From positions 1,426,001-1,490,000 of the forward strand of contig OY756140.1 of assembly GCA_963576785.1 (NCBI GenBank): a DNA stretch of 64,000 nt. The letters run 5' to 3'. Made by a program: the position numbers and the translations under genes. This stretch comes from Chlorophyllum brunneum (taxonomy: Eukaryota > Basidiomycota > Agaricomycetes > Agaricales > Agaricaceae). The notes beneath the pieces were generated by a model that did not search any database, had not been told where the DNA came from, and worked only from the letters and a program-made list of their open reading frames with translations. This document shows positions 59,161 to 60,207 of this stretch, piece after piece (within the stretch, counting starts at the first letter, position 1; each line of letters opens with the position of its first letter).

Positions 59161-59472
59161 ATAATACCACAAGTACTTCCACTCTCGGAGGCAGTGAGCC
59201 CTAACGTTTTATTTTTGACTTTATCCAGAATCCAATAGCTTCTATCCTCCAAGTCTCATATATTGTCATTCCAACTACAAGGCATTGACGATCTACGCCC
59301 GAGTTCCCCAACAATTACTAAGGATACTAGTATGAAAGAAAGACTAAAAATGCACGAAATTGAATCGACTTCAACCAGGATCTGGTATAACACAGTACCA
59401 CCCCATCATCACCATAAATCCCACACCAATTCACCGCGCCCAATACCAGTCTTGTGGTAGTCATCAGTGCCC
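59161..59472. other. intergenic between convergent genes
   Basis: 3' flanks of the thiolase and the repeat-peptide gene. No gene seen. Confidence 0.5.
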
Positions 59473-60207
59473 TCAGTTGTAGGGAACAATGACACCGTTA
59501 GGTGCCTTAACGGCGTCCTCCACGGGGATGTTTTGACGGCTCTTGAGCTCGCGCTTGTTGTAGGGAACGATCACACCGTTGGGGACCTTGACAGCGTCCT
59601 CAACAGGGATGTTCTGGCGAATTTCGAGGTCCCGCTTATTGTAGGGGACGATGACGCCGTTGGGTGCCTTAACGGCGTCCTCTACAGGGATGTTCTGACG
59701 GTTGGAGAGCTCCCTTTTGTAAGGGACAATAACGCCGTTAGGGGCCTTGACCGCATCTTCAACTGGGATATTCTGGCGTTGAACGATCTCCCTCTTGTAC
59801 GGGACGATGACCCCGTTTGGAGCTTTGACTGCGTCCTGGACTGGGATGCTCCGACGAGCATGTTCACGCTTGTAAGGAACGATAACGCCATTGGGTGCCT
59901 TGACCGCATCCTCGACAGGAATATTCTGGCGGCCGACAAGTTCTCGCTTGTATGGAACAATGACGCCATTGGGTGCTTTGACTGCGTCCTCGACGGGAAT
60001 ATTTTGTCGTCGGACATAGGCGTTGATGGGCTCAATTGGCGTGGGTTCGCGCTGTTCGAGTGCACGCTAATTAGGTGATTTAGATGAGACATTTCGCTGA
60101 TGGATGAAAGAACTCACTGCCATGGGCATGGGCATACCAACCGGGACACCCATGGTTTGGCCAGCGAGAGTGAGCAAAAGAGTGGAGATGAAGAATGAAG
60201 TGCGCAT
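59473..60207 (-). CDS. Secreted Kex2-processed tandem-repeat peptide precursor
   Basis: Model (minus): 60207..60118, 60066..59473; 227 aa. A signal peptide (MRTSFFISTLLLTLAGQTMG) precedes a short Met/Pro-rich stretch and a spacer ending YVRR. Seven units of consensus QNIPVEDAVKAPNGVIVPY then run to the stop. The first six end in Y or YN followed by Lys-Arg; the last ends YN-stop. The linkers are E/D-x-x-x-R. An Arg precedes each unit, so mature peptides of about 19-20 residues could be freed by Kex2-type cleavage plus trimming. The large exon contains no Met. Known families with this design are fungal KEP proteins, which include dikaritin-type RiPP precursors, Ustilago Rep1 and ascomycete alpha-pheromones. 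I recognise none of these specifically. No DUF3328 or other modifying enzyme is nearby. It is divergent from ESF1. Confidence 0.85.
59476..60006 (-). repeat. Seven tandem coding repeats of the peptide precursor
   Basis: Units of 63-81 bp in direct order. The protein is almost constant, but codons differ freely: Lys-Arg is written AAGCGA, AAGCGT, AAGAGG, AAAAGG, AAGCGG and AAGCGC in successive units. Unit 3 is the most divergent (SIPVQDAVKAPNGVIVPY, preceded by ARR), and unit 6 has VKVPNG. The last three units end PYN. Confidence 0.92.

Follow-up and report, generated by a model that had tools for sequence, protein, structure and literature searches.

What does a minus-strand gene that encodes seven nearly identical units in tandem produce, and where would its chain be cut to release them? 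The gene lies at C2:1,485,473-1,486,207 of the genome, with a thiolase and an ESF1-like gene as its neighbours, within the 64,000-nt stretch of DNA that we analysed (the window). The reading we favor, at a probability of about 0.82, is a secreted seven-copy precursor of the KEP 497993 family, from which Kex2 would cut the copies at the Lys-Arg behind them and at an LxxR-type site before five of the seven. The gene model, in window coordinates, is as follows.

59473..60207, minus strand: whole gene, encoding a 227-residue seven-unit precursor (ORF and repeat analysis)
60118..60207, minus strand: exon 1, ATG at 60207-60205 (homology across the joint)
60067..60117, minus strand: intron of 51 nt, GT-AG (GTGAGT...TTAG; a stop is met on read-through)
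59473..60066, minus strand: exon 2, carrying the seven-unit array and the TGA
60148..60207, minus strand: predicted signal peptide covering residues 1-20, from a hydrophobic stretch, with the cleavage site placed by eye
60007..60066, minus strand: part of the propeptide, RALEQREPTPIEPINAYVRR

An earlier note on this DNA had proposed a signal peptide, a 51-nt intron at 60117-60067 and the coordinates used here. When the exons are joined, the first 50 residues match the leader of Macrolepiota fuliginosa P0001, itself a database prediction, at 35 of 50 positions, and because this leader homology spans the intron, the exon joint is supported as the note had drawn it. The precursor N terminus is hydrophobic and conserved with M. 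fuliginosa, and a putative signal peptide is placed there. The tally of unit lengths given in the note likewise accounts for all of exon 2 (20 + 21 + 26 + 25 + 26 + 27 + 27 + 25 = 197 residues). Within this exon, cores and spacers alternate in the following order.

59950..60006, minus strand: core 1, QNIPVEDAVKAPNGVIVPY
59929..59943, minus strand: spacer ELVGR after KR, LxxR type
59872..59928, minus strand: core 2, QNIPVEDAVKAPNGVIVPY
59851..59865, minus strand: spacer EHARR after KR, dibasic end; the sole spacer without Leu or Ile at P4
59797..59850, minus strand: core 3, SIPVQDAVKAPNGVIVPY, a variant of 18 residues
59776..59790, minus strand: spacer EIVQR after KR, IxxR type
59719..59775, minus strand: core 4, QNIPVEDAVKAPNGVIVPY
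59698..59712, minus strand: spacer ELSNR after KR, LxxR type
59641..59697, minus strand: core 5, QNIPVEDAVKAPNGVIVPY, then Asn, then KR
59617..59631, minus strand: spacer DLEIR after NKR, LxxR type
59560..59616, minus strand: core 6, QNIPVEDAVKVPNGVIVPY, then Asn, then KR
59536..59550, minus strand: spacer ELKSR after NKR, LxxR type
59479..59535, minus strand: core 7, QNIPVEDAVKAPNGVIVPY, then a C-terminal Asn and the stop

Five of the seven cores, which are about 19 residues long, have exactly the sequence QNIPVEDAVKAPNGVIVPY. Unit 3 starts with SIPVQ and is one residue shorter, and in unit 6 Val replaces Ala at position 11. Gln, which is able to form pyroglutamate, is the first residue in six of the seven cores. 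The dibasic sites around the units comprise two Arg-Arg and six Lys-Arg, the latter in six different spellings, the same number that the note had counted. Tandem Repeats Finder placed the array at 59477-60003, with 6.7 copies at a period of 78.

We compared substitution between units, a comparison that the note had called for in arguing that selection acts on the peptide and that recent duplication does not account for its constancy. Pooling the 21 unit pairs gave a pS of 0.786 and a pN of 0.020, a ratio of 0.026. Pairwise base differences numbered 6, 12, and 224 at the first, second, and third codon positions, with the third position thus holding 224 of 242. The minus-strand frame of the precursor is coding sequence under strong constraint. 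We also redealt the codons among equal amino acids inside the repeats 2,000 times. Codons differed in 215 of 375 comparisons, and the redeals averaged 206 (sd 6); because this scrambling equals that of a random redeal, the synonymous positions carry no clear trace of recent copying. Both parts of the argument in the note were therefore borne out.

The opposite strand also holds a frame open over the repeats (59467-60078, plus strand, 203 residues). Its substitution ratio of 4.05 is unlike that of coding sequence, and we rejected it as a gene; the data suggest that it is a shadow of the minus-strand coding. Another plus-strand frame has a ratio of 0.093, yet it meets 9 stops over exon 2.

The units have also changed in step. 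Ala 8 and Val 17 are found in all seven units here; of the four units in M. fuliginosa P0001, three carry Pro 8 and all four carry Glu 17. This in-step change relative to M. fuliginosa, together with scrambled codons in the window gene, is what we find hardest to explain by copying.

The repeat exon fell into no Pfam family at an E value of 0.001, and Rfam gave zero matches at gathering thresholds in the 64,000-nt window. No second copy of the gene was among the listed matches in its own genome (at least five matches with a two-unit query and at least eight with M. fuliginosa P0010 as the query, all at the precursor locus). A simple scan for KEP-like repeats, which looked for shared 4-mers in frames of 50 residues or more, returned the precursor gene alone in the window, and the same scan found no such frame in the 10 kb to the right of it.

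Protein searches placed the precursor among relatives. Three of them, each scoring about 8,000 candidates that shared the most words, gave 9, then 6, then 9 further proteins, so that the search for orthologues proposed in the note yielded 24 homologous proteins at E values up to 1. Weak members among these are P0023 (E value of 0.019) and P0024 (0.2); P0009 was weak by itself (0.041) and scored well later with a profile that contained P0009 itself. Sources include M. fuliginosa (two proteins), Tricholoma matsutake, Lentinula raphanica, L. edodes, L. lateritia, Termitomyces, Agrocybe chaxingu, Tulasnella, and Amanita muscaria. To judge from these homologues, the gene probably comes from a mushroom close to Macrolepiota. 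M. fuliginosa P0001 matched the precursor with an E value of 5.2e-61. Termitomyces P0016 was found with an E value of 2e-52 by a tandem query of the published Coprinopsis cinerea peptide and matched the window protein, leader included, with an E value of 4e-19. As judged from this sequence likeness, the window gene is a member of the KEP 497993 family that is already in print and not an orphan.

The note had described the precursor as uncharacterised, a description that does not hold at the level of the family, which was described, and a peptide of which was detected, in 2022 (PMC9769878). In that paper, Vogt et al. report that C. cinerea KEP 497993 yields the peptide pyro-QIPAELPTKSINGNIEPY and a form extended by K, both of which are gone in a precursor knockout. 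The paper also mentions at least 13 agaricomycete homologues in other species, three kex2 genes in C. cinerea, no visible phenotype of the knockout, and no antibacterial effect of synthetic peptides (PMC9769878). A literature text search for the peptide string returned PMC9769878 alone. Over 18 aligned residues, the C. cinerea core is identical to the window core at 9 and to the first M. fuliginosa core at 11.

We next asked which core residues are kept across the family, using a pattern that found 62 cores in 18 of the 25 proteins (7 were without any). The distinct cores per protein, together with the printed C. cinerea peptide, gave 48 rows. The pattern demanded Pro at position 4 and a final Tyr or Phe, which makes conservation at these positions uninformative. 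At position 8, which was free in the pattern, all 48 rows have Ala (25) or Pro (23). The NG pair retains its Gly in 46 of 48 rows, and Lys is retained in 32 of 48; Glu is found in 45 of 48, at a position that was only partly free in the pattern.

The Lys-Arg pairs would provide the cut on the C-terminal side of the units. On the N-terminal side, the conserved Arg before the units is probably a second Kex2 site, of the LxxR type, and a cut there would set the N terminus of the peptide. LxxR is a known expanded Kex2 motif (PMC8528282 and PMC6258133), and in Pichia, products cut after a single Arg have been reported, KEP 497993 among others (PMC9769878). In the window precursor and M. fuliginosa P0001, a spacer of the form (E/D)(L/I/H)xxR stands between KR or RR and the core, and at most sites in the other relatives the core lies directly behind a dibasic pair. 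All five single-Arg sites in the window gene have Leu or Ile at P4, and the spacer that bears His ends in RR.

The same preference was seen across the proteins compared. In a first pass over 16 proteins, 13 of the 14 single-Arg sites before a core had Leu or Ile at P4. Nine later proteins showed these residues in 3 of 5 single-Arg sites versus 1 of 28 dibasic sites, with Val at the other two single-Arg sites, and after these two Val were seen in this second protein set we enlarged the P4 class from Leu/Ile to Leu/Ile/Val. Across all 25 proteins, Leu or Ile occupies P4 in 16 of 20 single-Arg versus 4 of 64 dibasic sites, and the class with Val added does so in 19 of 20 versus 6 of 64, in totals that rest on a core-finding pattern of our own making, widened after the first pass, and on tandem units that are not independent. 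For the enlarged class, the proportions are 14 of 15 versus 6 of 62 without the window gene and 10 of 11 versus 5 of 24 when one site is taken per protein and class. Of the 118 other single Arg in the same proteins, at which no core starts, 35 also show Leu, Ile, or Val at P4. The exception among the sites before a core is Tyr, in P0010.

The spacers bear on another possibility, that the precursor is of the alpha-pheromone kind and undergoes trimming by the dipeptidyl peptidase Ste13. The layout is the same, an acidic residue follows KR, and the genome has one DPPIV_N match, on C7. However, Ste13 sites are defined by an XA or XP dipeptide, and none of the six spacers begins with one; the cores, moreover, start directly after Arg. 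They also lack the C-terminal Trp reported for basidiomycete Ste13-motif KEPs (PMC9769878), and we regard this possibility as extremely unlikely.

The propeptide has an LxxR-type site of its own, ALEQR (60049-60063; AIEQR in M. fuliginosa). Cutting at this site may release one more peptide, EPTPIEPINAYV, or a trimmed version.

These considerations suggest a pathway for the favored reading of a Kex2-cut KEP 497993-family precursor. The predicted signal peptide would route the chain into the secretory pathway, where Golgi Kex2, as inferred from the motif and the relatives, would cut behind each dibasic pair (KR or RR) and behind the Arg that ends an ELxxR-type spacer. Kex1 would then trim leftover C-terminal basic residues, as in the known pathway, and the Gln exposed at the N terminus would cyclise to pyroglutamate by analogy with the C. 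cinerea relative. The main product would be linear and secreted: pyro-QNIPVEDAVKAPNGVIVPY, either as such or extended by a C-terminal Asn. Free secretion of the core would go beyond what was seen in C. cinerea, where the corresponding peptide occurred in premature caps and a sister fragment alone was in the medium (PMC9769878). The note had expected a Kex2-processed repeat precursor of a secreted peptide of 19 to 20 residues, which architecture and family support as a prediction, and had suggested pyroglutamate at its N terminus, which gains likelihood from the pyro form of the C. cinerea peptides; in that study, an unmodified (non-pyro) form could not be confirmed (PMC9769878).

The genome contains candidate enzymes for part of this pathway. 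A Kex2-type gene, with a P-domain and a subtilase domain, lies at about C3:1.374-1.375 Mb, and the genome has one P-domain (Kex2-type) match, compared with the three kex2 genes of C. cinerea. For glutaminyl cyclase, PF05096 was without a match in the genome, and the 12 M28 matches are candidates at most.

We also considered a dikaritin-like RiPP, in which UstYa enzymes from unlinked genes would cyclise the core or its C-terminal Tyr, whether ahead of Kex2 cutting or following it. The core does end in Tyr, and seven UstYa (DUF3328) exon matches fall at three places in the genome, two or three per place.

C2:216-223 kb: UstYa (DUF3328) matches
C2:3.75 Mb: UstYa (DUF3328) matches
C10:66-68 kb: UstYa (DUF3328) matches

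Since the nearest of these on the same contig is about 1.26 Mb from the precursor, a cyclic dikaritin is unlikely. The genome search gave no UstYa match in the 64,000-nt window, in keeping with the note, which had reported DUF3328 to be absent nearby. In the three stretches of about 10 kb that contain the matches (C2:214000-223999, C2:3750000-3759500, and C10:62000-71900), the 4-mer scan gave no KEP-like repeat frame. The published relatives in the family are linear, with pyroglutamate as the sole modification (PMC9769878), and in the count by Umemura, 103 of 1,680 basidiomycete KEPs have DUF3328 neighbours. The tyrosine-modified RiPP that the note had kept as an option thus loses ground, and we consider it very unlikely.

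Where the peptide would act is suggested by its constancy. The most likely role would be that of a signal or interaction peptide outside the hypha, because most units hold to one exact sequence even though their codons are fully scrambled. A structural surface peptide that coats hyphae, like Ustilago Rep1, would also come from a Kex2-cut repeat precursor with many copies per chain; Rep1 peptides make fibrils on the hyphal surface, and the C. cinerea core peptides were found mainly in premature caps and were absent from the culture medium (PMC9769878). However, the cores here are about half the length of the 37-residue Rep1 peptides, and the C. cinerea peptides came out in ordinary peptide extraction, with a sister fragment present in the medium (PMC9769878). 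We judge a structural role to be decidedly unlikely.

A bolder form of the signaling reading is that the product is a peptide hormone kept exact by a specific partner, that the units change together without DNA homogenisation in this gene, and that the LxxR site before most units switches the product from a short form with pyroglutamate to a longer one capped by ELxxR, or back. We put this forward as speculation and think it, taken as a whole, unlikely to be correct.

For the favored reading of a secreted KEP 497993-family precursor, several implications follow. Many mushrooms have members of the family, one of which is known to make a real peptide; the window gene supplies an exact, near-invariant peptide for synthesis. 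The combination of scrambled codons and a constant peptide makes the gene a clean case for what keeps tandem peptide copies alike. Because an LxxR-type site probably frees the Gln that becomes pyroglutamate, our analysis suggests that KEP searches limited to dibasic sites would assign wrong N termini in part of this family. The proposal of an LxxR-type second Kex2 site for these precursors may be new here: a limited literature search found no earlier statement of such sites in them, and PMC8528282 was alone in combining both subjects.

Among known systems, the closest is KEP 497993 itself. The window precursor shares with it a signal peptide (predicted here), tandem cores of the form Q-IP-x-E-x-(A/P)-x-K-xx-NG-x-I-x-PY, Kex2 sites, and an expected pyroglutamate. 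The tie between the two runs via the Termitomyces and Macrolepiota relatives, with which the leader was compared. Unlike KEP 497993, the window cores have an extra residue after Gln (QN-IP), and units 2 to 7 have the five-residue spacer (E/D)(L/I/H)xxR in front, whereas KEP 497993 cores follow directly behind KR. M. fuliginosa has both traits; the extra residue also occurs in P0019, P0020, and P0022, and several of the other relatives likewise have single-Arg sites. M. fuliginosa P691DRAFT_812487 (P0001) has leader, core, and spacer type in common with the window precursor, and P691DRAFT_778681 (P0010), a second, shorter, irregular copy, has leader and core in common. The first core of P0010 stands behind a single Arg with Tyr at P4, and P0010 may represent a paralogue in decay or an error of annotation.

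More distant systems share the general layout. The dikaritin precursors of ustiloxin, phomopsin, and asperipin-2a have Kex2-cut tandem repeats behind a signal peptide and a core Tyr, a layout predicted for the window precursor as well, which differs in that a clustered UstYa enzyme is absent. Ascomycete alpha-pheromone precursors and basidiomycete Ste13-motif KEPs likewise have KR followed by an acidic spacer, but the window spacers end in a predicted LxxR Kex2 site in place of the XA or XP dipeptides of that type. Rep1 of Ustilago maydis is, as predicted here, a Kex2-cut repeat precursor of a basidiomycete, and its peptides are set apart from the window cores by greater length and a surface role. 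Finally, KEP type #7 of Umemura (49 genera, without DUF3328), compared by genera, overlaps with the family in Coprinopsis, Pleurotus, Hypsizygus, Panaeolus, and Termitomyces.
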